This document shows, one piece after another, positions 44,221 through 60,107 of a stretch of 64,000 nucleotides of DNA. The notes beneath the pieces are model-generated. The model saw nothing but the letters and a program-made list of their open reading frames with translations, was not told where the DNA came from and searched no databases. A program made the translations under genes and the position numbers. The DNA is from Siculibacillus lacustris (GTDB lineage: Bacteria > Pseudomonadota > Alphaproteobacteria > Rhizobiales > Ancalomicrobiaceae). The DNA is taken from assembly GCF_004328075.1 (NCBI RefSeq), contig NZ_SJFN01000004.1, positions 1 to 64,000 of the forward strand. Reading direction: 5' to 3'. Numbering within the stretch: the stretch's first letter is position 1; each line of letters opens with the position of its first letter.

Positions 44221-45777
44221 ATGACCGCGCTGATCGAAGTTCGCAACCTCGACAAGAGCTTTCCCGGCGTCAAGGCGCTGCGGTCTGCGAGCTTCACGCT
44301 GGAGGCCGGCGAGGTCCACGCCCTGATGGGCGAGAACGGGGCCGGCAAGTCGACGCTGATGAAGATGCTGGCGGGCATCTATTCCTGGGATTCCGGCGAG
44401 GTCCTGGTCGATGGCGCGCCGGTGACCATCGCCGGGCCGAAGGCGGCGCAGGCGCTGGGGATCGGCATCATCCATCAGGAACTCAACCTGATGAACCATC
44501 TGACCGCGGCGCAGAACATCTTCATCGGCCGCGAACCGCGCCGGCGCTTCGGCTTCCTCGACGAGGGCAAGCTCAACTTCGACGCGGCGGCGCTGTTCCG
44601 CCGGATGAACGTGACGATCGATCCCAAGACCCTGGTCGGCGACCTCACCGTCGCCAAGCAGCAGATCGTCGAGATCGCCAAGGCGCTGTCGTTCCATTCG
44701 CGCGTGCTGATCATGGACGAGCCGACCGCGGCGCTGAACACCGCCGAGATCGACGACCTGTTCGTGATCATCCGCGATCTCAAGGCGCACGGCGTCGGCA
44801 TCGTCTACATTTCGCACAAGATGGACGAGCTGAAGCGGATCGCCGACCGGGTGACGGTGATGCGCGACGGCGAGACCATCGCCACCCTGCCGGCCCAGTC
44901 GACCCCGGTCGAGACGATCATCTCGCTGATGGTCGGGCGCGAGTTGGCCCATGCCGAGCCGCCGAAAGTCCCCGAGATCCAGGGCGACGAGGCGCTGCGG
45001 GTGGTCGGCCTGTCGCGCGGCCGGGCGCTGCGGGACATCTCCTTCTCGGTGCGGCGCGGCGAGATCCTCGGCTTCGCCGGGCTGATGGGGGCGGGGCGGA
45101 CGGAAGTGGCGCGGGCGGTGTTCGGCGCCGATCCGATCGACACCGGCGAGATCTGGGTGCGCGGGGCGAAACTCAAGATCCATTCGCCGGCGGACGCGGT
45201 CAGGGCCGGCATCGCCTATCTCTCGGAGGACCGCAAACGTTTCGGGCTGGTCACCGCGATGGACGTCGAGGCCAACATCTCGCTGGCCAGCGTGATGCGT
45301 CATCGCCGCGCCTGGGGGTTCCTCGACTTCCCGTCGCTCAAGGCGCTGGCGGCGCGTTACGTCAAGTCGCTGACCATCAAGACGCCGTCGACCGCCCAGG
45401 TCGCCAAACTGCTGTCGGGCGGCAACCAGCAGAAGCTGGTGATCGCCAAATGGCTGGCCCGCGACAGCGACATCCTGTTCTTCGACGAGCCGACCCGCGG
45501 CATCGACGTGGGCGCCAAGGCGGAGATCTACAAATTGTTGCAGAGTCTCGCCGATCAGGGCCGGGCGATCATCATGATCTCCTCGGAACTGCCGGAGATC
45601 CTGCGCATGAGCCATCGCATCCTGGTGATGTGCGAGGGCCGCATTTCCGGCGAACTGACCGCCGCCGAAGCCACCCAAGAAACGATCATGAAGCTGGCGA
45701 CACGGACACACGTGGCGACCGGCACGGCCCGAGGAGGGGCGCACGGGGATGAGCACGGACCTGTCGCAAACGAATGA
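44221..45777 (+). CDS. Ribose/simple-sugar ABC importer, double ATPase (RbsA type)
   Basis: A 518-residue fused ABC ATPase of the CUT2 class. The first domain has Walker [10 protein letters not shown] (37-45) and [11 protein letters not shown]; the second has the degenerate GLMGAGRTE, and LSGGNQQK with [14 protein letters not shown], as normal in RbsA/MglA. It powers uptake of a sugar through the permease encoded next. The product overlaps the permease gene by 29 bp. Substrate unknown. Confidence 0.93.
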
Positions 45778-46765
45778 CGTGAGCCTCCGCAGCCTGCGCG
45801 CCGCGCTGTTCGATTCGGCCGCAGGCCAGTTGTTGCTCGCCTTCGCCAGCCTGATCGTGCTGGTCGCCGGCTTCGGCATCGCCTCACCGAACTTCCTGCA
45901 GACCGACAACCTGATCGGTATCCTGCAGGCCACCGCGGTCAACGGCGTCCTCGCCGTCGCCTCGACCTATGTGATCATCACCGGCGGCATCGACCTGTCG
46001 GTCGGCACGCTGATGACCTTCTGCGCGGTCATCGCCGGGGTGTTCCTGACCTATTGGGGCTATCCGATCGGCGTCGGCGTCGCCGCGGCGCTGATCTGCG
46101 GGGCGCTGTGCGGCGCCACCTCGGGCTTCCTGATCGCCAAGATGGAAGTGCCGCCGTTCATCGCGACGCTCGGCATGATGATGCTGCTCAAGGGCCTGTC
46201 GCTGGTGATCTCCGGCACCAAGCCGATCTATTTCAACGACACGCCGGACTTCCCGGTGATCGCCCAGGATTCGCTGATCGGCTATCTCGTGCCGTCGCTG
46301 CCGATCCCCAATGCGGTGCTGATCCTGTTCGTGGTGGCGGTGGCGGCGTCGGTGGTGCTGCGCTCGACGGTGCTCGGGCGCTACATCTTCGCGCTCGGCA
46401 GCAACGAAGAGGCGGTGCGGCTGTCCGGCGTCGACACCGACTTCTGGAAGATCGTGATCTATGCGGTGAGCGGCGCGATCTGCGGCATCGCCGGGCTGCT
46501 GATCGCCTCGCGGCTCAATTCGGCGCAACCGGCGCTCGGCCAGGGCTACGAACTCGACGCCATCGCCGCGGTGGTGATCGGCGGTACCTCGCTCAGCGGC
46601 GGTCGCGGCACGGTACTCGGCACGATCATCGGCTCGTTCATCATCAGCGTCCTGACCAACGGTCTGCGCATCCTGTCGGTGGCGCAGGAGTGGCAGACGG
46701 TGGTGACCGGCGTCATCATCATCCTCGCGGTCTACGCCGACATCATGCGGCGGCGGAAGACCTGA
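45749..46765 (+). CDS. Sugar ABC importer permease (RbsC type)
   Basis: A 338-residue CUT2 permease with about eight to ten helices. The signature SQ-like [19 protein letters not shown] and [20 protein letters not shown] motifs are present. It overlaps the ATPase by 29 bp; the binding protein follows after 101 bp. It is the inner-membrane channel. Confidence 0.93.
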
Positions 46766-46866
46766 GCGATCGCGTCCATCGACCACGAGAGGGAGGACCT
46801 CGTCCGACGACCACAATCCGTTCGACAGAAGCGGTTTCCAACAATTTCAAGAATGAGGAACGTCCG

Positions 46867-47808
46867 ATGTTCAAGCTCAGGCATCTCGCCGCCGTCGTCG
46901 CGCTCGGCACGGCGGTCGGTCTCTCGGCGCCGGTGTTCGCCGCCGACACCTACATCCCGCTGATCTCCAAGGGCTTCCAGCATCAGTTCTGGCAGGCGGT
47001 GAAGTCCGGCGCCGAACAGGCGGCCAAGGACCTCAACGTCAAGGTGACGTTCGAAGGCCCCGAGACCGAAGCCATGGTCGACAAGCAGATCGACATGCTC
47101 GCCGCGGCGCTGGCCAAGAACCCGGCGGCGATCGGCTTCGCGGCGCTCGACAGCCAGGCGGCGATCCCGCTCCTGAAGAAGGCCCAGGCGGCCAAGATCC
47201 CGGTGATCGCCTTCGACTCCGGCGTCGACAGCGACATCCCGCTGGCCACCGCCGCCACCAACAATGCGCTCGCCGCGGGGCTGGCGGCCGACAAGATGGC
47301 CTCGCTGATCGGCGGCGAAGGCGACGTGGCCCTGGTCGTCCACGACCAGACCAGCCGCACCGGCATCGATCGCCGTGACGGTTTCGTCAACCAGATCAAG
47401 GCCAAGTACCCCAAGATCAAGATCGTTTCGATCCAGTACGGTGCCGGCGACCAGCTCAAGTCGACCGAGATCACCAAGTCGATCCTTCAGGCCAATCCCA
47501 ACCTCAAGGGCATCTTCGGAGCCAACGAGGGTTCGGCGATCGGCGTGCTCAACGGCGCCAAGGAACTCAAGCGCAAGATCGTGGTGATCGGCTACGATTC
47601 CGGCAAGCAGCAGAAGGCGGCGATCCGCTCCGGCGAAATGGCCGGCGCGATCACCCAGAACCCGGTCGGCATCGGCTACAAGACGGTCGAAGCCGCGGTC
47701 AAGGCGATCAAGGGCGAGAAGTTCGACAAGGTCATCGACACCGGCTTCTACTGGTTCGACAAGTCCAACATCGACGACCCGAAGATCGCGGCGCTGCTCT
47801 ACGACTGA
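46867..47808 (+). CDS. Sugar ABC importer periplasmic binding protein (RbsB/Peripla_BP_4)
   Basis: A 313-residue sugar-binding protein with a signal peptide (1-25, ending PVFA). Mature part starts DTYIPLISKGFQHQFWQAVKSGAEQAA; IGYDSGKQQKAAIRSGEMAGAITQNPVGIGYKTVEAA is the closing family motif. GAGGAA precedes ATG 46867. The family includes ribose, xylose and polyol binders; sequence does not decide. The last gene of the importer, followed by two hairpins. Confidence 0.92.
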   Translation: MFKLRHLAAVVALGTAVGLSAPVFAADTYIPLISKGFQHQFWQAVKSGAEQAAKDLNVKVTFEGPETEAMVDKQIDMLAAALAKNPAAIGFAALDSQAAIPLLKKAQAAKIPVIAFDSGVDSDIPLATAATNNALAAGLAADKMASLIGGEGDVALVVHDQTSRTGIDRRDGFVNQIKAKYPKIKIVSIQYGAGDQLKSTEITKSILQANPNLKGIFGANEGSAIGVLNGAKELKRKIVVIGYDSGKQQKAAIRSGEMAGAITQNPVGIGYKTVEAAVKAIKGEKFDKVIDTGFYWFDKSNIDDPKIAALLYD

Positions 47809-47976: not shown

Positions 47977-48759
47977 ATGACCGACAAGATCGATGCCTTC
48001 CTGGCGCTGCGCAGCGGCGGCCGCCTGCTGGCGGGGCGGGAGCGTATCCGCCTGCTCGAGGCGGTGGCCGAACACGGCAGCATCACCAAGGCCGCCAAGG
48101 CCACCGGCTTCAGTTACAAGACCGCCTGGGAGGCGGTCGACGCGATCAACAATCTCCTGCCGACCCCGGCCTTCGTGACCAAGGCCGGCGGCCGGGTCGG
48201 CGGCGGCGCCGAGGTGACGCCCGAGGGGCGGCGGCTGATCGCCACCTTCCACCGGCTGGAGGCGCGTCTCACCGAGATCTCGGCGACGATCGCCGAGGAC
48301 GGGCTCGACGGGCTCGAGGATGCGCTGACGGTCGGGATCAAGATCTCGGCGCGCAACGTGTTCCAGACCGAAGTGGTCGCGGTCCGCCGCTGGCCGGTCG
48401 ACGTCGAAGTAACGCTGAAGGTCTCCGACCACGCGGCGATCCTGGCGATCGTCACCAATGCCGCGGCCGAGGACCTCGGCCTGGTGCCGGGACGGCGGGT
48501 GCTGGCGCTGGTCAAGTCGTCCTTCGTCCATCTGGTGCCGCTCGCCGCGGCCGAACGCCATCGGCGCAACCTGTTCCGCGGCCTCGTCAAACGGCGGGTC
48601 GACGCGGAGTTGAACAGCGAGATCCATCTCGACATCGGCGCCGGCAAGACGATGATCGCGGTGGTGCCGCGCCACGACGCCGAGGATCTCGGCCTCGCCG
48701 AGGGTGGCGAGATCGCCGCGACCTTCGATGCCGATCACGTCATTCTCGCGGTCGACTGA
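47977..48759 (+). CDS. modE: Molybdate-responsive regulator ModE
   Basis: A 260-residue ModE with N-terminal winged helix (about 18-80; AEHGSITKAAKATGFSYKTAWEAVDAINN, typical ModE) and two Mop/TOBE molybdate-binding domains (about 125-185 and 190-258; SARNVFQTEVVAV and NSEIHLDIGAGKTMIAVV). When molybdate is bound it represses mod genes and activates Mo-enzyme genes. It is next to the importers it likely controls. Start ATG 47977 fits the family. Confidence 0.95.
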   Translation: MTDKIDAFLALRSGGRLLAGRERIRLLEAVAEHGSITKAAKATGFSYKTAWEAVDAINNLLPTPAFVTKAGGRVGGGAEVTPEGRRLIATFHRLEARLTEISATIAEDGLDGLEDALTVGIKISARNVFQTEVVAVRRWPVDVEVTLKVSDHAAILAIVTNAAAEDLGLVPGRRVLALVKSSFVHLVPLAAAERHRRNLFRGLVKRRVDAELNSEIHLDIGAGKTMIAVVPRHDAEDLGLAEGGEIAATFDADHVILAVD

Positions 48760-48865: not shown

Positions 48866-49016
48866 ACCGGAAGGGCGTCGAAACGGATCGATCGGATCGC
48901 CATCGACGAACGGACAGCGGCACGGTACTTTCTTCGCCGATCGATGTGTAAACCGAATGCCGAACGTTCGATGATTCGTCGTCGCGCCGTCCGGCCGGAA
49001 GCTCGGAGGGTCTGCC

Positions 49017-50009
49017 ATGCCGTCACGTCTCGATCGTCGCGCCTTTCTCCTCGGTTCCGGCGCACTGGCGCTCGGCGGTCCAGTCGCCGGCGTCGCCCGG
49101 GCCGCGCCGATGCCGGGCCTCGAGATCCTCGGCGCGCCCAACGGCTCGACCATCGTGCTGGTCGATCTGATCGAATCGGGGGCGCTCGCCGCCGCCGCCC
49201 CGGGCGCCACCTTCCGGCTGTGGCGGACCACCGACGATCTGCGCGCCGGAATCGTCTCCGGCCGGACCAAGCTGTTCTCGACGCCGACCCACGTCCCGGC
49301 CAATCTGGCGGCGCGGGGGATGCCGCTGAAGCTCTTGTGTCTGCTCGGCATGGGCCATCTGTCGGTGGTCACCGCCGACGAGACCATCCGCAGCTTCGCC
49401 GATCTCGCCGGCAAGCCGGTGCTCGGTTTCTTCCGCAACGACATGCCCGATCTGATCTTCCGCGCCATCGCCAAGATGGAGGGGATGAACCCCGACACCG
49501 ACATGACCCTGACCTACGTCCAGACGCCGATGGAAGGGGCGCAGCTCTTGGCCGCGGGGCGGGCCTCGACGGCGATCCTGTCCGAACCGCCGGCGACCGC
49601 GGCGATCGTGATGGCCGGGACACAAGGACGGATCTTGCGCCGGGCCTTCGATCTGACCGAGGTCTGGGGTCGCCACAAGGCCCAGCCGCGCATTCCGATG
49701 GTCGGGCTGGCGCTGCACGCTGGCCTCCTCGACGAGGCGCCGGAACTGATCGCGGCGCTGCGGGCCGGGCTCGGCCCGGCCAAGGACCGGGTGCTGGCCG
49801 ATCCGGCGGCGGCGGCGCGGCGCGCCGAGCGCAGCCTCGAGATGCGACCGATGGTGTTCGAGAAGGCGCTGCCGAAGTTCAAGATCGACGTCGTCTCGGC
49901 GCGGGCGGCCAAGGACGAGCTGATCGACTTCTACACCACCCTGCTGGAGCTCGACCCGGCGGCGCTCAGCGGACGCCTGCCGCCCGACGACTTCTACCTG
50001 GACCTGTGA
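49017..50009 (+). CDS. NitT/TauT-type ABC importer binding protein (NMT1-like)
   Basis: A 330-residue exported binding protein. The signal has a twin-arginine type start (RLDRRAFLLGSGALALGG) ending near 30. The mature part (LEILGAPNGSTIVLVDLIESGAL; LFSTPTHVPANLAARGMPLKLL; YVQTPMEGAQLLAAGRASTAILSEPPATAAI) follows the NMT1/SsuA fold used for nitrate, sulfonates, taurine and thiamine precursors. Its place between modE and a ModA-like gene hints at an oxyanion. One base separates it from the permease. Confidence 0.82.
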   Translation: MPSRLDRRAFLLGSGALALGGPVAGVARAAPMPGLEILGAPNGSTIVLVDLIESGALAAAAPGATFRLWRTTDDLRAGIVSGRTKLFSTPTHVPANLAARGMPLKLLCLLGMGHLSVVTADETIRSFADLAGKPVLGFFRNDMPDLIFRAIAKMEGMNPDTDMTLTYVQTPMEGAQLLAAGRASTAILSEPPATAAIVMAGTQGRILRRAFDLTEVWGRHKAQPRIPMVGLALHAGLLDEAPELIAALRAGLGPAKDRVLADPAAAARRAERSLEMRPMVFEKALPKFKIDVVSARAAKDELIDFYTTLLELDPAALSGRLPPDDFYLDL

Positions 50010-50010
50010 G

Positions 50011-50802
50011 ATGGCCGAGCGGACCGGCGGCGATCGGCTGTGGGGGACCTTGGGCTTGGCGGGCCTGGCGGCCGGCTGGAGCCTGATCCACACCACCGCC
50101 GGTCCCTTCGTGCTGCCGTCGCTCGCCGACACCGGGACGGCGCTGATCCGGGTGATCGCCGACGGCTCGGCGCTCGCGGGGCTGGCGCTGACCTGCCTGC
50201 ATGCGGTCGGCGGGGCGGTCGCCGGGGCGGCGGTCGGGTTGGCGCTGGGGCTCGCCGGCGGGGCGGTGCGGCCGCTCGGGGCGGCGCTTGCGCCGGCCGT
50301 CACGGCGATCCTCGGGGTGCCGCCGGTCGCCTGGATCGTGCTGGCCTTCCTGTGGTTCGGCACCGGACCGGCGGCGCCGCTGTTCACGGTGGCGATCGCC
50401 ACGGCGCCGCTGCTCTTCGCCGCGACGCTCGCCGGCGTGCGGGCCCGCGATCCGGCGCTGATCGAAATGGCCACGGTGTTCCGCCTGCCGCGGGCGACGC
50501 GGTTCTTCCGCCTGACGCTGCCGGAACTGGCGGTGCAGGTGGCGCCGGCGCTGTCGAGCGCCTTCGCCATGGCCTGGAAAGTGGCGCTGACCGCGGAAGT
50601 GCTCGGCGACGGCAGCGGCGTCGGCGGCCGCTTCGCGACGGCGCGGGCCCATCTCGACCTCGCCGAGGCGATGGCCTGGATCGTCCTGGTGGTGGCGGTG
50701 CTGCTGACCATCGACGCCGTGCTGTTCGGGCCGCTGCGGCGGCGGATCGATCCGGCGACGCCGGCGACGCGCGACGGCACCGACGACGGAGAGCGGCGAT
50801 GA
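50011..50802 (+). CDS. NitT/TauT-type ABC importer permease
   Basis: A 263-residue permease with six hydrophobic segments and the family EAA-like segment (ATVFRLPRATRFFRLTLPELAVQ) at about 150-170. It is of the SsuC/TauC class. ATG 50011 begins 1 base after the binding protein stop; the ATPase overlaps by 4 bp. Confidence 0.85.
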   Translation: MAERTGGDRLWGTLGLAGLAAGWSLIHTTAGPFVLPSLADTGTALIRVIADGSALAGLALTCLHAVGGAVAGAAVGLALGLAGGAVRPLGAALAPAVTAILGVPPVAWIVLAFLWFGTGPAAPLFTVAIATAPLLFAATLAGVRARDPALIEMATVFRLPRATRFFRLTLPELAVQVAPALSSAFAMAWKVALTAEVLGDGSGVGGRFATARAHLDLAEAMAWIVLVVAVLLTIDAVLFGPLRRRIDPATPATRDGTDDGERR

Positions 50803-51545
50803 GGCTGAGCTTCGACGGGGTGACCTGGGGGGCCGAGGGCGAACCGGTGTTGGGCGGCGTCGATCTCGCGGTCGCGGCCGGCGAGTTGGTGGTGCTGGTC
50901 GGCCGTTCGGGGGTCGGCAAGTCGACGGTGTTGCGGCTCGCCGGGGGATTGACGGCGCCGAGCGGCGGACGGGTGAGGCGCGAGGCGCGGCGGGTGGCGA
51001 TGGTGTTCCAGGAGCCGCGGCTGCTGCCCTGGGCGAGCGCGCTCGACAACGTCGCGCTGTCGCTGTCGGCGCTGGGGCTCGGCCGGGCGGCGGCGCGTGC
51101 GCGGGCGGCGCCGTGGCTGGCGCGGCTGGGGCTGTCTCCGCGCGATCTCGCCAAGCGCCCGGCGGCGCTCTCCGGCGGCATGCGGGCGCGGGTGGCGGTG
51201 GCCCGGGCCTTCGTGATCGAGCCCGACTTGGTGTTGCTCGACGAGCCCTTCGCGGCGCTCGATCTCGCCCTGCGCCGCGATCTCCAGGCGATCACCCGCG
51301 GGCTGGTCACCGAGACCGGCGTCGCGGCGCTGTTCGTCACCCACGATCTGCCCGAAGCGGTGCGGCTCGCCGACCGGCTGATGGTCCTCGACGGCCGCCC
51401 GGCGCGGGTGGTGGCGACGCTGGTGCAACGGCCCTGCGAGACGCTCGCCGACGTCTGGGAAGCCGCCGCGGCCCTGTCGCGCCGGCCCGAACTGGCGGCG
51501 ATCGCCGGCGACGCCGCCGCCCCCCCTCGTGTTTCCCCCCGATGA
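50799..51545 (+). CDS. NitT/TauT-type ABC importer ATPase
   Basis: A 248-residue ABC ATPase. Walker A GRSGVGKST is at about residues 36-44, with VFQEPRLLPWASALDNV Q-loop of the SsuB/TauB type, signature LSGGMRARVAVARA and Walker B LVLLDEPFAALD. Its own ATG overlaps the permease stop; the stop is followed closely by a second binding-protein gene. Confidence 0.88.
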   Translation: MRLSFDGVTWGAEGEPVLGGVDLAVAAGELVVLVGRSGVGKSTVLRLAGGLTAPSGGRVRREARRVAMVFQEPRLLPWASALDNVALSLSALGLGRAAARARAAPWLARLGLSPRDLAKRPAALSGGMRARVAVARAFVIEPDLVLLDEPFAALDLALRRDLQAITRGLVTETGVAALFVTHDLPEAVRLADRLMVLDGRPARVVATLVQRPCETLADVWEAAAALSRRPELAAIAGDAAAPPRVSPR

Positions 51546-51556
51546 GGACCCTCTCC

Positions 51557-52354
51557 ATGAAACGTCTGTTCGCCACCCTGGCACTCGCCGCCGTGTTCGC
51601 CGCTCCGGCCCGGGCCGAAGACGTGGTGCTCTATGCCGCCGGCAGTCTCAGCGGCGCCTTCGGCGAGGTGGCCGCGACCTTCACCGCGGCGACCGGGGTC
51701 GCGGTGAAGGCCGCCTTCGGGCCGTCCGGCCTGATGCGCGAGCGGATCGAGGCGGGCGAGGGCGCCCATCTCCTGGCCTCGGCCGACATGGGGCATCCGC
51801 GCCGGTTGGTCGCCGAGGGCCGCGCCGAGGGGGTGATCCGCTTCACCGGCAATCGGCTCTGCGCGATGGCGCCGCCGGCGGTCGGCCTGACCGCCGACAA
51901 TCTCCTCGACAAGGCGCTCGATCCGCAGCTGCGGCTCGGCACGTCGACGCCCAAGGCCGATCCGGCCGGCGACTACGCCTGGGCGATGTTCGAGCGGGCC
52001 GAGAGCCTGCGGCCGGGCGCGGAAGCGGCGCTGAAGGCCAAGGCGCGGCAACTGGTCGGCGGGCCGACTTCGGAGAAGATCCCGGCCGGCAAGAGCGCCG
52101 TACCCTACATGTTCGAGACCGGCCGGGCCGATCTGTTCGTGGCCTATTGCACCACCGGCAAGGCGGCGGCCGATGCCGGTGTGGCGCTGACCCTGGTCGA
52201 GTTGCCGCCGGCGCTGGCCCAGACCGCCGACTATGGGCTGGTGGTGCTGAAGGGCGCGCCGCGCGACGCCGATCGTTTCGCGCTGTTCCTGCTGTCGGAG
52301 TCCGGCCAGGCGGTGCTCGGCAAGTGGGGCTTCGCGGTGACCACGGCGCGCTGA
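51557..52354 (+). CDS. ModA-like periplasmic oxyanion-binding protein
   Basis: A 265-residue exported protein (signal 1-20, ending PARA) of the extracellular solute-binding family that includes ModA. It opens DVVLYAAGSLSGAFGEVAATF and has FGPSGLMRERIEAGEGAHLLASADM, a ModA-type ligand loop. It is distant from the true ModA at 55.1-55.9 kb. It follows the NitT/TauT-type ATPase by 11 bp, so two different binding proteins share one operon. AGGA lies 8 bases before ATG 51557; an ATG at 51542 overlapping the ATPase stop is the alternative. Confidence 0.8.
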   Translation: MKRLFATLALAAVFAAPARAEDVVLYAAGSLSGAFGEVAATFTAATGVAVKAAFGPSGLMRERIEAGEGAHLLASADMGHPRRLVAEGRAEGVIRFTGNRLCAMAPPAVGLTADNLLDKALDPQLRLGTSTPKADPAGDYAWAMFERAESLRPGAEAALKAKARQLVGGPTSEKIPAGKSAVPYMFETGRADLFVAYCTTGKAAADAGVALTLVELPPALAQTADYGLVVLKGAPRDADRFALFLLSESGQAVLGKWGFAVTTAR

Positions 52355-52416: not shown

Positions 52417-53268
52417 TCAATCGTCCGGCGTCAGCCGCACCTGGACGTCGCGGGGACGGGCGCCGTAGGGCCACGACGTGACGATCATGTCGGCGCCGGC
52501 GGCGACGTGGGCGGCGGCGTTGTCGGGACCGATGCCGCCGGCCGCGGCGAGAACCGGGCGGGGATGGCGATCGGCGAGGAGCGCCACCGTGCGGGCGATC
52601 TCGGCCGGGGCGAACTTTTCCAGTTGGATCACGTCGAACCCGGCGGCCGCGGCGCTCGCCGCCTCTTCCGGGCTCGCCACTTCGATCACCAGCTTCTTCT
52701 CCGGCGCGACCCGGCGCAATCGCGCGGCCATCTCGGCGAGCGGTACGTCGGGCAGGAAGCGGCGGTGTTCCTCGAACACCAGCACCGTCTCCGACAGGCC
52801 GAGGCGATGGGGGATGCAGCCGCCGGCGACGATCGCCCCGATCTGCAGGCGGCGGGCGCCGGCGAGCGTCTTGCGGGTACAGGCGACCGGCACGACGCGG
52901 CCGCCGCGGGCCGCCGCTTCGACCAGCGCATGGGCCGCCGAGGCGATGCCGGAGAGGATCTCGAGGGTCGTCTGGGCCTGTTTCCAGGCGCGATGCAGCG
53001 CGCCGGCGGGGCCGCGGGCGGACAGCAGCGGCGTGCCGCGCGGCACCGGATCGCCGTCGGCGACCAGGACCTCGGCGTCGCCACCGGCGACCTCGACGAG
53101 GCCGCGGGCGATGCGGATGCCGGCGACCACCAGGTCGGCGCGGGCGAAGAAGTCGATGCGGGCCGGGCGGTGGCCGAGCCCCAGGCCGGCGGTGGTGAGG
53201 TCGCCCCAAGGGGCGTCCTCGGCGAGCAGAGCCTCGAGTTCGCTGCGGTTCAGGTCGAGATCGACCAT
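52417..53268 (-). CDS. modD: Molybdenum-linked phosphoribosyltransferase-like protein ModD
   Basis: A 283-residue NadC-fold protein of the ModD family, which lies in mod operons of alphaproteobacteria. Seen are DAPWGDLTT, CTRKTLAGARRLQIGAIVAGGCIPHRLGLSETVLVFEEH and AAAGGIGPDNAAAHVAAGADMIVTSWPY, matching NadC/QPRTase blocks. NadC makes nicotinate mononucleotide; ModD function is unproven. It is the last gene of mop-modA-modB-modC-modD, 10 bp after modC. Confidence 0.88.
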   Translation of the reverse strand: MVDLDLNRSELEALLAEDAPWGDLTTAGLGLGHRPARIDFFARADLVVAGIRIARGLVEVAGGDAEVLVADGDPVPRGTPLLSARGPAGALHRAWKQAQTTLEILSGIASAAHALVEAAARGGRVVPVACTRKTLAGARRLQIGAIVAGGCIPHRLGLSETVLVFEEHRRFLPDVPLAEMAARLRRVAPEKKLVIEVASPEEAASAAAAGFDVIQLEKFAPAEIARTVALLADRHPRPVLAAAGGIGPDNAAAHVAAGADMIVTSWPYGARPRDVQVRLTPDD

Positions 53269-53278
53269 GGCGGTTCCT

Positions 53279-54382
53279 TCACGCGCGGGGGACGCCGGCG
53301 ACGCCGCGTTCGTCGATCGACACCGCCTTGACCAGGGCGGTGACCGATTGGCCGACCGCCAATTGCATCGCGTCGACGGCGAGGCGGGTCAAGTAGGCGT
53401 AGAGCCGCTCGCCGCCGGCGAGGTCGAGGGCGACCAGGGCGAAGGGGCCGTCGACGTCGCTGGTGATCGCGGCGATGCGGCCGGCGAGCGTGGTGCGCAC
53501 ACTGGTCGCGCCGTCGGGGAGGCGGCCGAGCGCCACGTCGGTGGCGTGGACGACGACGCGCACGGTCATGCCGACCGAGGCCATCAGCCGCGGCACGACG
53601 ATCGAGCCGGCGGCATGCGCGATGGTCGAGACGCCATGGGCAGGATCGAGCGCGGCGACCTTGCCCGACAGCACCGAGACGGCGCCGAAGCGATCGCCGG
53701 CATGGGCCAGGGTGGTCGGGGCGAGCACCTCGGCGGCGCCGCCGATCGCCGCGACGTGGCCGGCGTCGAGGCGCACCACGGTCGAGGCGAGGCGGACGAC
53801 CTCTTCGACGGCATGGCTGACGTAGAGGATCGGAATCGCGAATTCGTCGCGCAGGCGCTCGACGAAGGGCAGGATCTCGCGCTTGCGCTCCTCGTCGAGG
53901 GAGGCCAGCGGCTCGTCCATCAGCAGCAGGTCGGGCGACATCAGGAGCGCCCGGCCGATCGCCACCCGCTGTTTCTCGCCGCCCGACAGGGTCGCCGGGA
54001 AACGGCCGAGCAGGTGGTCGATGCCGAGCACCTGGACCACGGCGTCGCGCGATACGGCGCGGTCGGCCGGTCTCGTGAAGAAGCGGCCGTAGGCGAGGTT
54101 GGTGGCGACGCGGAGATGGGGGAACAGCTGCGCGTCCTGGAAGACGAGCCCGATGCGGCGGCGGTGGGGCGGCACGAAGACACCGCGCTCGGTGTCGACC
54201 AGCACCCGGTCGCCGAGGACGATGCGGCCGCGGTCCGGGCGCTCGAGCCCGGCGACGAGGCGGATCACCGTGGTCTTGCCGCAGCCCGAGGGCCCGAACA
54301 GGGCGGTGACGCCGCCGTCGCCGGCGAAGGCCACGTCGAGGCGGAAGGCGTTGCGCGCCAGCTCGACCCGCACGTCGATCAT
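53279..54382 (-). CDS. modC: Molybdate ABC importer ATPase ModC
   Basis: A 367-residue ATPase. Walker A GPSGCGKTT is at 30-38, LSGGEKQRVAIGRAL and LLLMDEPLASLD follow, and a C-terminal TOBE/Mop molybdate domain (about 300-360; VRTTLAGRIAAI, LVKAVSI) regulates it. ATG 54382 overlaps the modB stop by 4 bp, so the much longer frame upstream was rejected. Confidence 0.95.
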   Translation of the reverse strand: MIDVRVELARNAFRLDVAFAGDGGVTALFGPSGCGKTTVIRLVAGLERPDRGRIVLGDRVLVDTERGVFVPPHRRRIGLVFQDAQLFPHLRVATNLAYGRFFTRPADRAVSRDAVVQVLGIDHLLGRFPATLSGGEKQRVAIGRALLMSPDLLLMDEPLASLDEERKREILPFVERLRDEFAIPILYVSHAVEEVVRLASTVVRLDAGHVAAIGGAAEVLAPTTLAHAGDRFGAVSVLSGKVAALDPAHGVSTIAHAAGSIVVPRLMASVGMTVRVVVHATDVALGRLPDGATSVRTTLAGRIAAITSDVDGPFALVALDLAGGERLYAYLTRLAVDAMQLAVGQSVTALVKAVSIDERGVAGVPRA

Positions 54383-55068
54383 CGCCGGCCTCCGTCGCGC
54401 CCGGCCCGGCGCACCGACAATTCCGACAGGATCAGCGCGGCGAAGGCGATGGCGGCGGCGACCAGCGACAGTTTGAGCGCGCCGAGATCGCCGCCGGGGG
54501 TCTGGGTGTAGCTGTAGATCGCCGCGGGGATGGTCTGGGTCTGGCCGGGGATGTTGGAGACGAAGGTGATGGTCGCGCCGAATTCGCCGAGCGCCTTGGC
54601 GAAGGCCAGCACCGCGCCGGCGACGATGCCGCGCGCGGCGAGCGGCAGGGAGACGGTGGCGAAGACCCACAGGGGCGGCGCGCCGAGGGTGGCGGCGGCC
54701 TGTTCGATGCGGTCGTCGATCGCCTCGAAGGACAGACGGATCGCCCGGACCATCAGCGGGAAGCCCATGACCCCGGCGGCCAGCGCCGCGCCGGTCCAGC
54801 GGAAGGAGAAGACGATGCCGAAATGTTCGGCGAGCGCCGCGCCGAACACGCCGCGCCGGCCGAACAGGATCAGCAGGGCATAGCCGGTGACCACCGGCGG
54901 CAGCACCAGCGGCAGATGCACCAAGCCGTCGATCAGCGCCTTGCCGGGGAAACGGCCGCGCGCCAGGAGCCAGGCGACGGCGACGGCGAGGGGCAGCGCA
55001 CCGAGGGTGGCGATCGTGCCGACCTTCAGCGACAGACCGATCGCCGTCCATTCTTCGGGAGAAAACAC
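54379..55068 (-). CDS. modB: Molybdate ABC importer permease ModB
   Basis: A 229-residue permease with five hydrophobic segments and the EAA-like loop LGAPPLWVFATVSLPLAARGIVAG; LAFAKALGEFGATITFVSNIPGQTQTIP is the ModB signature. It overlaps modC by 4 bp and is 18 bp after modA. Confidence 0.95.
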   Translation of the reverse strand: MFSPEEWTAIGLSLKVGTIATLGALPLAVAVAWLLARGRFPGKALIDGLVHLPLVLPPVVTGYALLILFGRRGVFGAALAEHFGIVFSFRWTGAALAAGVMGFPLMVRAIRLSFEAIDDRIEQAAATLGAPPLWVFATVSLPLAARGIVAGAVLAFAKALGEFGATITFVSNIPGQTQTIPAAIYSYTQTPGGDLGALKLSLVAAAIAFAALILSELSVRRAGRDGGRR

Positions 55069-55086: not shown

Positions 55087-55881
55087 TCACGGCTTCAGAA
55101 TCGTGAAGCCTTGGTCGACGAAGATCTTGGCGGCTTCCGGCCCTTTGAGGAAGGCGAGATAAGCGGCGGCGTCGGGGCTGGTCGAGTCCTTGGTGATCGC
55201 CACCGGATAGACGATCGGCGGATGGCTGTCCGTCGGGAAGGTGCCGACCACCGTGACCTTGGGCTCGGACTTGGCGTCGGTCGCATAGACGATGCCGTAG
55301 CGGGCCTCGCCGCGGGCGACCAGCGACAGGGCGGCGCGGACGTTGTCGGTGCCGGCGATCTTCGGCTGGACTTCGGCCCACAATCCGAGCTTCTCCAGCG
55401 CCGCCTTGGCGTATTTGCCGACCGGTACCGAGGCGATGTCGCCGGTGGCGAGCTTGCCGTCGCCGATCTTGGCGGCGAGCGGTGCGCCGGGGGCGAGGGT
55501 GAGGGTCTCGGGCTGCGACAGGGGGGCGATCAGCACCAGGGCGTTGCCGAGCAGATCGACGCGGGTCTCCGGCCGGATCAGACCCTTCGCCGCGACATAG
55601 TCCATCCACGGGATGTCGGCGGAGACGAACAGGTCGGCGGGCGCGCCCTGCTCGATCTGCTTGGCGAGCGCCGACGACGCGGCATAGGACACGGTGACCG
55701 ACTTGCCGGTCGCTTTGGTGTAGAGGGCGTCGATCTCGTCGAGGGCGGTCTTCATGCTGGCTGCGGCGAAGACGGTCGGGCCGGCGGTCTCGGCGGCGAC
55801 CGGGGCGGTCGGGACGGCCAGGGCGAGGCCGGTGGCGAGCGCCAGGGCGGCGAGACGGCGGAGCGGAGCGGCGGCGAACAT
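55087..55881 (-). CDS. modA: Molybdate ABC importer periplasmic binding protein ModA
   Basis: A 264-residue ModA with signal peptide (1-30). Mature part: TVFAAASMKTALDEIDALY, and ligand loops VSYAASSALAKQIEQGAPADLFVSAD and ARGEARYGIVYATDAKSE; binds molybdate/tungstate in the periplasm. ATG 55881 fits the signal peptide; an upstream GTG/CTG extension was not used. It is the true ModA, in contrast to the distant homologue at 51.6 kb. Confidence 0.95.
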   Translation of the reverse strand: MFAAAPLRRLAALALATGLALAVPTAPVAAETAGPTVFAAASMKTALDEIDALYTKATGKSVTVSYAASSALAKQIEQGAPADLFVSADIPWMDYVAAKGLIRPETRVDLLGNALVLIAPLSQPETLTLAPGAPLAAKIGDGKLATGDIASVPVGKYAKAALEKLGLWAEVQPKIAGTDNVRAALSLVARGEARYGIVYATDAKSEPKVTVVGTFPTDSHPPIVYPVAITKDSTSPDAAAYLAFLKGPEAAKIFVDQGFTILKP

Positions 55882-55940: not shown

Positions 55941-56150
55941 TCAGTCGATGGCGATCATCACGTCGGAGGCCTTGATCACCGCGGCGACCGCCATGCCGAC
56001 CCGCAGGTCGAGATCGTCGACGGCCTCGGTGGTGATCGACGCGGTGAGGATCCGCCCGGGGGCGACCTCGACCACGACATGGGCGGTGGTGGCGCCGCGG
56101 GTGACTTTCAGGATCGTGCCGGACAGAATGTTGCGTGCGGAAAATCTCAT
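55941..56150 (-). CDS. mop: Molybdenum-pterin binding protein (molbindin) Mop, copy 1
   Basis: A 69-residue single Mop/TOBE domain: SARNILSGTILKVTRGATTAHVVVEV and ASITTEAVDDLDLRVGMAVAAVIKASDVMIAI. Molbindins form hexamers that store molybdate in the cytoplasm. It heads the mod operon, 59 bp before modA, with a dyad about 140 bp upstream. Confidence 0.93.
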   Translation of the reverse strand: MRFSARNILSGTILKVTRGATTAHVVVEVAPGRILTASITTEAVDDLDLRVGMAVAAVIKASDVMIAID

Positions 56151-56523
56151 GCCCGGCCCTTTCTGGTCGCCACAGACGGGGACCCGAAGATCACCGCAGC
56201 CGCTGCGTGTCCACGTGACGAAGGTCGCGTCGATACGACCCGTCGCGACGAAATCTCGGGGTCACTCTAGCCGAAGGACAGAGCATCCTGTAGCGCAAAT
56301 ATACAGCGCTCGGGCAAAAACGAAGCGCCGTCGCTCGGCGTGACCTGGAAACGGTATCAGGGTTGCTTGGCGGTCGCTGCACGACGGAGGGGCGGGGGAG
56401 GTGCGGCTTCGCGCCATCGGCGCGGTCGGGCCGCGGCGCGCGCCGGGGGGCGGCGCGGGGCTCGGCCGTCGATGCGCCGGCCGGGTGACGGCGGGCCCGC
56501 GACGCGCGCGAGCCCGCGGCCGA
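56151..56523. other. 373-bp region upstream of the mod operon
   Basis: No gene is seen. The part from about 56200 to 56330 is AT-richer than its surroundings and holds the dyad at 56292-56310. The part toward the second mop gene (56400-56520) is extremely GC-rich. Confidence 0.5.
56292..56310. promoter_or_regulatory. Candidate ModE-type operator upstream of mop1-modABCD
   Basis: AGCGC (56292-56296) and GCGCT (56306-56310) flank an AT-rich centre AAATATACA. It is about 140 bp upstream of the mop copy 1 start. Known Mo-boxes are AT-rich dyads, so this is the best local candidate, but it does not match a fixed consensus. Confidence 0.35.
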
Positions 56524-56730
56524 TCAGGCGACGGCGATCAGCACGTCGGAGGCCTTGACGATGGCGGTGGCGGTGCCGCCGACCACTAGGCCGAGGTCGT
56601 CGACCGCTTCGTTGGTGATCGAAGCGGTGATCTTGATGCCGGCGACGTCGAGGGTGACGTGGGCGGTGGTGGCGCCCTTCTTGATGGCGACGATGGTGCC
56701 GGGCAGCGCGTTGCGGGCGGAGATCTTCAT
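56524..56730 (-). CDS. mop: Molybdenum-pterin binding protein (molbindin) Mop, copy 2
   Basis: A 68-residue Mop domain, SARNALPGTIVAIKKGATTAHVTLDV then TASITNEAVDDLGLVVGGTATAIVKASDVLIAV. It is a clear paralogue of the 55.9-kb copy. It lies 373 bp upstream of copy 1 on the same strand and has its own promoter region with the ATAATA-C-TATTAT palindrome. Two molbindins suggest separate control of storage. Confidence 0.92.
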   Translation of the reverse strand: MKISARNALPGTIVAIKKGATTAHVTLDVAGIKITASITNEAVDDLGLVVGGTATAIVKASDVLIAVA

Positions 56731-57116: not shown

Positions 57117-57968
57117 GTGACCGAACCCTCGTCCTCGCCGTCCGTTCCGCTGCCGACCCCGGAGGCGATCCGTTCGCTCGGGGCTCGGCGGATCACCGCG
57201 GGCGGGGTGGCGCAGCGCGCCGAAGCGATCGCCGCGGAAGTGCCGGTGGCGCTGATCTACAACGGCCAATCCTTCGCGGTGATGCTGGCGACCCCCGCCG
57301 ATCTCGAGGATTTCGCCCGCGGCTTCTCGGTGACCGAGGCGGTGGTCGGCGCGGCCGCCGACATACGGGCGATCGAGGTGCGGGCGGTCGACCGCGGCAT
57401 CGAACTGCGCGTGACCATCGACGACTATTGGGCGCTGGCGCTCGCCGCCCGGCGACGCAGTCTCGCCGGGCGCAGCGGCTGCGGCCTGTGCGGCGTCGAC
57501 ACCTTCGCCGAGGCCCTGCGGCCGGTGGCGCGGGTCGCGTCGCGCTTCACCGTCGGCCCCGCGGCGCTGCGGAAGGCGATCGCCGACATGCCGGCGCATC
57601 AGACGATCAACGCCCAGGTCGGGGCGGTGCACGGCGCCGCCTTCGTCGGGGCCGACGGATCGATCCGCGCGCTGCGCGAGGACATCGGCCGGCACAATGC
57701 GCTCGACAAGCTGATCGGCGCGGTGATCGACGACGACGTGGGGCGCGGCGACGGCTTCGTCCTGGTGTCGAGCCGCTGTTCCTACGAAATGGTCCACAAG
57801 ACCGCAGTCGCCGGGATCCCGCTGATCGCCGCGGTGTCGGCGCCGACCTCGCTGGCGATCGAGCTCGCCGAGAAGGTCGGCGTGACCCTGGTCGGCTTCG
57901 CCCGCGAAGGCCGCTTCACGGTCTATGCCGGCGGCGAGCGCATCGCTCCCGAGACGCCGGCGGCCTGA
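57117..57968 (+). CDS. fdhD: Formate dehydrogenase sulfurtransferase FdhD
   Basis: A 283-residue FdhD. The family CxxC (RSGCGLCGV; C122 and C125) is present, as are DLEDFARGFSVTEAVV and REDIGRHNALDKLIGA and SSRCSYEMVHKTAVAGI. FdhD moves sulfur from IscS to the molybdenum cofactor of formate dehydrogenase. Start GTG 57117 has GGAG 8 bases upstream. This implies a Mo/W formate dehydrogenase, though none lies in the window. Confidence 0.95.
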   Translation: MTEPSSSPSVPLPTPEAIRSLGARRITAGGVAQRAEAIAAEVPVALIYNGQSFAVMLATPADLEDFARGFSVTEAVVGAAADIRAIEVRAVDRGIELRVTIDDYWALALAARRRSLAGRSGCGLCGVDTFAEALRPVARVASRFTVGPAALRKAIADMPAHQTINAQVGAVHGAAFVGADGSIRALREDIGRHNALDKLIGAVIDDDVGRGDGFVLVSSRCSYEMVHKTAVAGIPLIAAVSAPTSLAIELAEKVGVTLVGFAREGRFTVYAGGERIAPETPAA

Positions 57969-58065: not shown

Positions 58066-59085
58066 TCAGCCGCCGGTGAGGTTCATGCCGCGGGCGACCG
58101 CGGCGAAGGGCGCATGGGCGAAGTCGTGGCCCTGGGGCTTGCGGGCGATCGCCGCGTCGATCGCCGCGGAAAGCGCCGCGTCGCCTTCGCTTCCCCGCAA
58201 CACGGCGCGCAGGTCGACCGCGGATTCGCGGCCGAGGCACAGCGTCAGGCGGCCGTCGCAGGTGATGCGGACGCGGTTGCACTCGCCGCAGAAGCCGTGG
58301 CTGAGCGGGGTGATGAAGGCGATGCGGCCGCCGGTCTCGCGGACCCGGACGTAGCGCGCCGGGCCGCCGCTGCGCTCCGGCAGGTCGATCAGCGTGAAGC
58401 GCCGCTCGAGGTCGGCGCGGACCCGATCGAGGGTCAGGTGGCGGGCGGCGCGGTCGCCACCGATGCGGCCGATCGGCATGGTCTCGATCAGCGCGAGGTC
58501 CATGCCGCCGTCGTGGGCGAAGGCGAGGAGATCGTCGATGGCGCCGTCGTTGACGCCGGTCTGGACCACGGCGTTGATCTTGACCGCGAGCCCGGCGGCG
58601 CGCGCCGCGGCGATGCCGGCGAGCACCTCGGCGAGGTCGCCGCGGCGGGTGACGTCGGCGAATCGGGCGGGATCGAGGGTGTCGAGCGAGACGTTGACCC
58701 GGCGCAGGCCGGCGGCGGCGAGATCGCCGGCGAAGCGGTCGAGCAGCGAGCCGTTGGTGGTCATGGTGATCTCGTCGAGGCCGCCGCCGTCGAGATGGCG
58801 GGCGAGGCCTGCGACCAGACCGACGATGCCGCGGCGGGCGAGCGGTTCGCCGCCGGTCAGCCGCACCCGGCGGATGCCGCGGCGCACGAAGGCGGAGATC
58901 AGGCGGTCGAGTTCGTCGAGATCGAGCACCTCGGCCTTGGGCAGAAAGGTCGGATGGTCGCCCATGCAATAGGTGCAGCGATAGTTGCAGCGATCGGTCA
59001 CCGAGACCCGGAGATAGTCGATGTGGCGCCCGAAGGGATCGACCAGGGCGGGGCGGTCGGCGACGACGGCACGATGATGCGACAT
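58066..59085 (-). CDS. moaA: GTP 3',8-cyclase MoaA
   Basis: A 339-residue radical SAM enzyme for the first step of molybdenum cofactor synthesis. The N-terminal cluster cysteines are C33, C37 and C40 (CNYRCTYC), the second cluster lies at [21 protein letters not shown], and the C-terminus ends in Gly-Gly needed for activity. ATG 59085 fits the family; read-through upstream is spurious. It is 116 bp after focA on the same strand, behind hairpins. Confidence 0.95.
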
Positions 59086-59130
59086 GGGCACTCGCAGGAC
59101 TGGAGGAGGTCGCGGACGCGGAGATGGGGG

Positions 59131-59194
59131 CCCGCGAACCGGCGCGTCGGGGCGTCGGTTCGCGGGATCGCGAGCGGCCGGGCGGACCCGGCCG
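59131..59194 (-). terminator. Two hairpins after focA
   Basis: CGGCCGGG/CCCGGCCG (59175-59194) directly follows the focA stop, then CCCGCGAACC (59131-59140) pairs with GGTTCGCGGG (59157-59166). They precede moaA, so they may end or weaken the hyc-focA transcript. No T-run. Confidence 0.5.
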
Positions 59195-59201
59195 CCGGCG
59201 G

Positions 59202-60107
59202 TCACTCGGCGGGGGCGCGCCGGCCGACCTCGCCCTGCGGGTTCGGCAGCGGATGCAGGCCGCCCAGAGCCTTGCGGTAGATGATCCAGTAGACGAGGCC
59301 GACCCCGCCGGCGCCGCCGACGATGTTGCCGAGCGTCGCCGGGATCAGGTTGTGGACGATGCCGGAGAGGGTGATCGCCGAGACGTCGAGGCCGGCCGGG
59401 ACATGGCCGGTTTCGACCAGGACGTAGGCGAGCGGCAGGAAATACATGTTGGCGACGCAGTGTTCGAAGCCGGCGGCGACGAAGGCGGCGACCGGCAGGA
59501 CCATGCCTGCCATCTTGTCGGCGACCGAGCGGCCGGCGTAGGCGAGCCACACGCCGAGGCAGACCAGGATGTTGCAGAGAATGCCCTTGAAGAAGATCGT
59601 CACCGTGTCGGGGGTGATCTTGCTGATCGCCAGCTTCAGCACCGCCGCGCCGACGGCACCGCCGTTCATCTCGGTGTGATGGGCCATGAACACCATGACC
59701 ACCATCGCCAGGGCGCCGACCAGGTTGCCCAGCCAGATCACCGTCCAGTTCCGCAGCACTTCGCCGGTGCGGATCTGGCGGTTGATCCAGGCCATGACGA
59801 TCAGGCAGTTGCCGGTGAACAGCTCGGCGCCGCCGATCATCACCAGGGCGAGGCCGAGGGCGAAGACGATGCCGCCGAACAGGCGCTGGAAGGCGAAGCC
59901 GAGGGTGGCATCGGCGAGGATGATCACGAAGAACATGCCGCCGAGCGCGATCGAGCCGCCGGCGACCACCGCCAGCATGAAGCTGGCGAGGAACGGCATG
60001 CGCGCCTTCTTGACGCCGAGCTTCTCGACCTTCTCCTGAATTTCTGCGGGCGAATAGGCGTCCGATCCGAACATTTCGGACTTTTGCGACGCATCCTTCT
60101 CAGCCAT
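59202..60107 (-). CDS. focA: Formate/nitrite transporter FocA/NirC family
   Basis: A 301-residue inner-membrane channel with six hydrophobic helices and FNT motifs ([41 protein letters not shown]). Placed right behind hycI, so formate is the likely cargo (import for hydrogenlyase); nitrite cannot be excluded. The N-terminus is acidic/lysine-rich ([18 protein letters not shown]). A 102-bp gap follows hycI. Confidence 0.9.

Follow-up and report, generated by a model that had tools for sequence, protein, structure and literature searches.

What would an ATP-binding cassette (ABC) importer of the NitT/TauT type be doing in the middle of a molybdenum gene cluster? The question is raised by a 64,000-nucleotide stretch of the Siculibacillus lacustris genome (assembly GCF_004328075.1, contig NZ_SJFN01000004.1, positions 1 to 64,000; hereafter the window), in which four plus-strand genes, encoding a substrate-binding protein (SBP1), a permease, an ATPase and a ModA-like second binding protein, sit between modE on the same strand and modDCBA on the other (Table 1). 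A sequence-only reading had described an NMT1/SsuA-type binding protein, permease and ATPase followed within 11 bp by a ModA-like protein in this position, had taken the group for a second, molybdenum-linked system, and had supposed that one permease might serve two ligands. Open reading frames (ORFs) and hidden Markov model (HMM) scans agree with the arrangement, although the interval proposed began at 48960, 57 bp ahead of the SBP1 start codon (49017). Overall that interpretation is partly supported: the molybdenum link gained evidence from relatives, while the two-ligand idea lost most of its ground. The arrangement is unusual, yet the stronger result concerns the NitT-type importer, apparently under molybdenum-linked control in a clade of likely nitrogen fixers. 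We consider it slightly better than even (a probability of about 0.55) that SBP1, permease and ATPase form a molybdenum-responsive ABC importer of nitrogen-fixing Alphaproteobacteria built on a NitT/TauT chassis; to judge from sequence, molybdenum, free or chelated, would be its most likely cargo.

Among the relatives of SBP1, of which the best 80 of 127 were retained, those with 55-80% identity group in a clade of their own, apart from those with 32-43%. The hallmarks of this clade are boxes of modA-operator type or, next to the importer, modE, yqeB, modD or Mop genes, as would be expected of a second, molybdenum-linked system. A strict TATAT-N8-ATATA box precedes SBP1 in 19 of 28 clade loci and six of eight genera, and these are the only such sites in the 453,917 bases of the 28 loci; one genus (g450) contributes 13 of the loci and 13 of the 19 strict sites. 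Pleomorphomonas sp. NRK KF1 (L079), a diazotroph, is among the carriers of both the importer and a strict box. L192 was omitted from this set, and its copy, L080, has no strict site. Allowing one mismatch, the box is found before SBP1 in 24/28 loci, and allowing two, in 27/28, compared with 25 and 66 of 2000 random 400-bp windows, respectively. The strict box is absent from all 69 loci of the sister clade, which is characterized by NnrS genes (two of its 71 loci, L094 and L134, yielded no ORF). Upstream of canonical modA in 25 relatives, the control counts were three strict boxes, nine with up to one mismatch and 13 with up to two (no canonical modA was obtained for L011, L016 and L024, which are omitted); upstream of tupB in 23 they were zero, zero and one. 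The same layout is seen upstream of E. coli modA, CGTTATAT-TGTCGCCT-ACATAACG (i.e. CGTTATAT-N8-ACATAACG), and at locus L191, CGTTATAT-ACTTCATG-ATATAACG (i.e. CGTTATAT-N8-ATATAACG); in genome G977 (L266) SBP1 and canonical modA are divergent and have the box between them. Binding of ModE to the E. coli modA box is established, and ModE would by analogy bind and repress at the clade boxes. The 32 upstream regions of SBP1 that were scanned contained no match to sigma-54 or FNR patterns; NifA-like matches occur in three of them.

Molybdenum-linked genes adjoin the importer in 11 of 32 other genomes of the clade, including the divergent modA of G977. The order modE-yqeB-SBP1 is found in Pinisolibacter (L074), and yqeB-SBP1 at a contig end in G013. 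Six genomes inferred to belong to the Xanthobacteraceae (L190, L250, L252, L253, L255 and L257) have modD-Mop-SBP1, in most cases accompanied by yqeB, a short ModE or both; in G815 (L247) nifH and yqeB stand beside the importer. Azorhizobium doebereinerae (L082/L268) has the order of the window, modE followed by SBP1-permease-ATPase-ModA-like, with a yqeB-like gene after modE, and the four-gene set is therefore not a chance neighbourhood of a single genome. The window's modE is 72-74% identical (residues 22-260) to the modE genes beside the same importer in Pinisolibacter and Azorhizobium. Within the subgroup of the window, whose members have no box, four of five (window, L074, L076, L082/L268) have modE and/or yqeB next to the importer. 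A NifH query matched NifH at 76-87% identity in all nine clade genomes tested, that of S. lacustris included (G000:C5); the match in G010 is cut by a contig end.

By profile, SBP1 is weakly NMT1/SsuA-like (SsuA_fam 19.8 bits, cutoff 163.5; NMT1_2 19.7, cutoff 24.7) and the permease falls under its subfamily cutoffs (SsuC 63.2 against 347; NtrB 42.9 against 209.05), so that neither reaches the curated SsuA, SsuC or NtrB subfamilies. Both belong to the NitT/TauT superfamily, as indicated by the NMT1-type fold of the SBP1 model and the PF00528 match of the permease (58.9 bits, cutoff 26.4). The AlphaFold model of SBP1 (predicted local distance difference test score, pLDDT, 91.6), built on 45 sequences with 44 of the 77 extracted relatives in the alignment, is that of an NMT1-type protein. 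Its nearest solved fold is 3hn0 (Z 31.1, root-mean-square deviation (rmsd) 2.4, 277 aligned residues), with PqqT (Z 27.5, rmsd 2.8, 288 aligned), 3un6 (Z 27.4), CmpA (Z 26.8, rmsd 2.8, 288 aligned) and NrtA (Z 26.5, rmsd 3.1, 289 aligned) close together below it. Since these neighbours bind ligands as different as a quinone cofactor, bicarbonate and nitrate, the fold does not reveal which ligand SBP1 takes. No TupA family appears among the SBP1 profile matches up to E 0.01, and there is no ModA match. At least 90% of the 45 SBP1 sequences retain two adjacent arginines (R7 R8), which suggests twin-arginine translocation (Tat) as the export route.

Taken as a molybdenum importer, the system would work as follows. 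When molybdenum is scarce, ModE would leave its operators; SBP1, probably Tat-exported, would capture a molybdenum species, either molybdate or an organic molybdenum chelate; and the type I permease/ATPase would import it for the molybdenum cofactor (Moco) and the iron-molybdenum cofactor (FeMo-co) alongside ModABC. Control would be exerted through the box of modA-operator (ModE) type in most of the clade and is suggested in the window's subgroup by the modE and/or yqeB upstream. The ModA-like protein appended in S. lacustris and Azorhizobium would most likely be an extra periplasmic catcher of molybdate or tungstate, presumably docking with, and feeding, either the NitT-type permease or the neighbouring ModBC. 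Several points weigh against this reading. The window, Pinisolibacter, G010, G013 and Azorhizobium have no box directly before SBP1 (4-5 mismatches); in the window neither pattern nor position weight matrix (PWM) finds one, the best site before SBP1 having four mismatches, and its own mod operon is equally without a good box (four mismatches). At L075 (G010) there is neither a box nor a molybdenum neighbour in view. The YqeB names are approximate, at 106.7-150 bits against an NCBIfam cutoff of 220, and the NifH count has no matched control, which leaves the link to nitrogen fixation suggestive. The fold is no guide to the ligand, PqqT, CmpA, NrtA and SsuA scoring near one another, and PMC3223731 describes five Rhodopseudomonas palustris proteins of the broad COG0715 class that bound organic ligands.

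The ModA-like protein has its best profile match in NF002917 (PRK03537, 'molybdate SBP'; 276.6 bits, cutoff 264), passes TIGR01256 (ModA) barely (64.3 against 62.5) and stays far below the WtpA profile (29.7 against 355); no TupA family is found among its matches up to E 0.01. In a tree of 53 rows (49 different; SBP1 not included), set against ModA and TupA, ModA-like proteins form a clade of their own (99/99), separate from the ModA clade (90/99) and from TupA, five TupA rows falling outside it; one row on a long branch, L011, whose best hit had given it the ModA-like label, grouped with TupA. Profiles and tree thus place the protein as neither a canonical ModA nor a TupA, and its nearest kin is the Azorhizobium doebereinerae protein (100/100) rather than proteins of its own family. 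It keeps S30, S57 and Y197, which we take to be oxyanion-site (ligand) positions of E. coli ModA and which are identical across eight aligned sequences including E. coli ModA, again in line with a molybdenum-linked system; some plasmid members (set A3) carry A in the S57 column. Its structure model was poor (pLDDT 42.7) and was not used.

Elsewhere, such genes keep other company. Among 34 order-level loci (within 4 kb, same strand; own genome, G003 and G013 left out), 19 have TupA, 16 a FecBCD/MolABC-like set, 26 either and eight neither; all seven class-level loci have one or the other, giving 33 of 41. Of two family members, one has the gene beside modABCD and one beside modC, and of seven plasmid loci three lie by a MolABC-like set, two behind a TonB receptor, one by molybdopterin genes and fdhF, and one alone. 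The MolABC-like name is tentative: one binding protein matches HI_1472 (MolA) at 2.1e-16, and its better matches are unnamed. At 13 of the 41 order- and class-level loci (L168, L170, L172, L173, L195, L197, L198, L200, L202, L204, L205, L208, L223), TupA (mostly as TupBCA) and a ModA-like protein, in some cases joined by Mop, occur together with a FecB/MolA-like binding protein and the accompanying FecC-like permease and ATPase. Three unlike binding proteins of molybdenum/tungsten type are there combined with one type I and one type II importer; at L205 the ModA-like gene is present as two tandem copies.

From these neighbourhoods it may be that the ModA-like protein is a general molybdenum/tungsten scavenger which hands its ligand to ModBC or TupBC and only shares the importer's promoter, a reading that we place below even odds. 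The company of TupA and/or MolAB-like genes at most loci speaks for it, as do the Pinisolibacter ModA-like gene behind modABCD and a TupA homologue elsewhere in the S. lacustris genome (G000:C3; the contig, at L229, has tupABC-like genes with MoeA-like genes nearby). The alternative, in which SBP1 and the ModA-like protein both bind oxyanions and deliver them to a single permease/ATPase pair, is possible on the 11-bp spacing, on the order repeated in Azorhizobium and on the sister relationship of window and Azorhizobium in both the ModA-like tree and a tree of the three concatenated importer proteins (86/84, moderate; next Pinisolibacter, G013 and G010). Against it, the gene accompanies the importer in one of 32 other clade genomes, Azorhizobium being also the only one with the four-gene set beside modE (in three, G701, G761 and G947, the contig ends before the gene after the importer), and a NitT-type importer like the window's stands beside none of 50 other ModA-like loci. 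This lack of conservation, which the sequence-only reading had itself named as refuting, largely undercuts the two-ligand idea, which we now regard as unlikely. A single gain of the ModA-like gene in the window/Azorhizobium lineage would explain both four-gene sets, and the most plausible reading is that a molybdenum/tungsten-linked binding protein, which accompanies importers of several kinds, was added later.

It is equally doubtful, in our judgement, that the importer is under ModE control while its cargo is an organic compound for molybdenum enzymes or nitrogenase (e.g. a pterin, a homocitrate-like acid or a sulfur compound) rather than molybdenum. The organic ligands of the COG0715 proteins would fit such a cargo, as would the binding of organic cofactors and precursors by the fold neighbours PqqT and Thi5 and the recurrent YqeB-like neighbour, named for molybdenum-hydroxylase maturation; the box shared with modA and, in two genomes, the presence of a ModA-like partner point instead to the metal.

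The sister clade offers a further comparison, with importers linked to nitric oxide (NO). An NnrS gene lies within 6 kb in 61 of 63 sister-clade loci (eight of 71 were left out for having less than 3.5 kb of room downstream) and in none of nine close loci of the window's clade; the nine were not filtered for room, and seven are comparable, L076 and L080 having less than 3.5 kb downstream. It is also absent from the stretches fetched for 29 further loci of the window's clade, 26 of them with room. TonB receptors, searched with two reference receptors as queries, occur within 6 kb at no fewer than 31 of the 63 sister-clade loci and at none of the nine. Among 15 annotated plasmid neighbourhoods of distant relatives, 10 have an NnrS gene, and TonB receptors, nap, hutWX and Crp/Fnr- and Rrf2-type regulators are among the neighbours. 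SBP1 loop residues N42, T72, H92, H114, F138, Q169 and M228, present in 7/7 close sequences, are A, P, mostly Q, L, P, G and Q, respectively, in 36 sequences of the NnrS clade; from the secondary structure of the model, these loops would line the binding cleft. The missing NnrS and TonB genes and the differing loop residues indicate that the window's importer is probably not merely another NO-linked system. A role shared with the sister importers in nitric oxide response or denitrification is accordingly very improbable: homology runs throughout the set and NnrS genes exist elsewhere in all four genomes checked, but the neighbours, the loops and the upstream boxes all differ. Weaker still is the case for an ordinary taurine, sulfonate or nitrate importer placed among molybdenum genes by chance, which has the family names of the weak HMM matches in its favour and against it the recurrence of boxes and molybdenum neighbours and scores of SBP1, permease and ATPase far under the curated cutoffs of those subfamilies, even if taurine, a sulfonate or nitrate might yet prove to be bound.

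The sister-clade survey showed the SBP-permease-ATPase-NnrS sets, an import system tied to the NO response, to be widespread (L059-L073, L083-L153), often with a TonB receptor, a Crp/Fnr or Rrf2 regulator, NnrU, DUF1971 or nap; Okeania relatives (L084-L087) show a different layout. One of these loci, L071 (NZ_CP128848.1), is labelled a Streptomyces plasmid but carries genes of clostridial appearance, possibly through contamination. Downstream of the importer in Rhodopseudomonas (L077 10529-14039, L078 10623-14133) come genes for an acyl-CoA-dehydrogenase-like protein, an AAA ATPase of the MoxR type (MadB-like) and a VWA protein resembling CoxE, and DUF2478 (PF10649) genes lie near the importer in two lineages (L250 10586-11176, minus strand; L082 4735-5328, plus strand).

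Table 1. Features of the window around the importer, with the basis of each identification.
Feature	Coordinates	Strand	Identification
Sugar ABC operon	44221-47808		Ribose-type (ATPase, permease, binding protein), directly upstream of modE; named by eye
modE	47977-48759	+	Molybdate-responsive regulator; LysR-type helix-turn-helix and two TOBE/Mop domains (ORFs, HMM scans)
SBP1	49017-50009	+	NitT/TauT-type (NMT1 fold) substrate-binding protein; R7 R8
Permease	50011-50802	+	ABC permease, BPD_transp_1; SaoP/SsuC/NtrB-like, far under their cutoffs
ATPase	50799-51545	+	ABC ATPase (ABC_tran); SsuB/TauB/NrtD-like, under their cutoffs
ModA-like gene	51557-52354	+	Substrate-binding protein of PRK03537/NF002917 group
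modD	52417-53268	-	TIGR01334, 245.2 bits (cutoff 178.85)
modC	53279-54382	-	TIGR02142, 402.9 bits (cutoff 285.05)
modB	54379-55068	-	TIGR02141, 216.6 bits (cutoff 182.6)
modA	55087-55881	-	Canonical molybdate-binding protein; TIGR01256, 204 bits (cutoff 62.5); tree
Mop-like (molbindin) gene	55945-56151	-	Upstream of modA; named by sequence reading; homologues at relatives' molybdenum loci
Second Mop-like gene	56524-56727		60.6% identical to the first
fdhD, presumed	57117-57968		ORF by eye; assumed from resemblance
moaA, presumed	58066-59550		ORF by eye; assumed from resemblance
Formate/nitrite transporter, presumed	59202-60107		ORF by eye; assumed from resemblance

The four genes are tightly packed, with 1 bp between SBP1 and permease, a 4-bp overlap (ATGA) between permease and ATPase, and 11 bp from the ATPase stop to the ModA-like gene, for which an in-frame ATG further upstream, at 51542, would overlap that stop. 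The molybdenum region continues past modA with the second Mop-like gene. An Rfam scan of the window at gathering thresholds returned no family. A separate yqeB-like gene is present elsewhere in the genome (G000:C3:107402-108193).

Molybdenum can limit nitrogen fixation, and an importer of another family that shares a switch with modA would, if the molybdenum reading is true, be a concrete candidate for added molybdenum uptake in diazotrophs. For part of a large NitT/TauT group, the sister half of which is tied to the NO response, it would also give a lead to the ligand. Among the open-access papers covered by the terms used, we recognised no description of a ModE-controlled NitT importer. Described molybdenum/tungsten importers are few, and a 2018 survey noted molybdenum-using organisms without any known transporter (PMC6147048). 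We tentatively suggest, while thinking it rather less than an even bet, that the system represents another molybdenum importer class in addition to ModABC, WtpABC, TupABC and MolABC: a ModE-controlled NitT-type importer of diazotrophic Alphaproteobacteria, kin to NnrS-coupled and often TonB-coupled importers, which would bring in molybdate or chelated molybdenum for nitrogenase and which in two lineages captured a ModA-like protein.

Vanadate was considered as well, as the hosts look like nitrogen fixers. The identity with VupABC was rejected because SBP1 gives no match to TupA, whereas PMC4284476 describes the VupABC genes as closest to those for tungstate transport. As a general cargo vanadate is less likely, given that NifH matches (E ≤1e-60) number one in G610 (80%) and two in S. 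lacustris (77% and 48%), and that R. palustris has another vanadate-binding protein, RPA1385, described in PMC3223731 as a misannotated phosphonate-type protein.

Among known systems, ModABC of the E. coli type resembles the window's locus in having modE nearby, in sharing its box with the clade, and in the domain family and three conserved residues common to ModA and the ModA-like protein; it differs in that SBP1 has no ModA match and that the ModA-like protein belongs to its own clade and has no ModB or ModC in its operon here. SsuABC, NrtABCD, CmpABCD and the PqqT-type binding protein share the SBP1 fold and the permease and ATPase class, whereas scores far under the SsuABC, NrtABCD and CmpABCD cutoffs, the box and the molybdenum neighbours set the clade apart. 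The NnrS-coupled NitT-type importers of denitrifiers, often with a TonB receptor, supply the nearest out-of-clade relatives of SBP1 that were found, with homologous permease and ATPase in the same order, but the window's clade has neither companion within 6 kb and differs in loops and box. The sets combining TupABC, a PRK03537 ModA-like protein and a MolABC-like type II importer likewise place a protein of this ModA-like family beside an ABC importer, which there is TupABC and/or FecBCD/MolABC-like and here of NitT type. With the vanadate importers VupABC and RPA1385, finally, the system would share the character of a metal-oxyanion importer of nitrogen fixers, VupABC standing apart through its kinship with tungstate transport.

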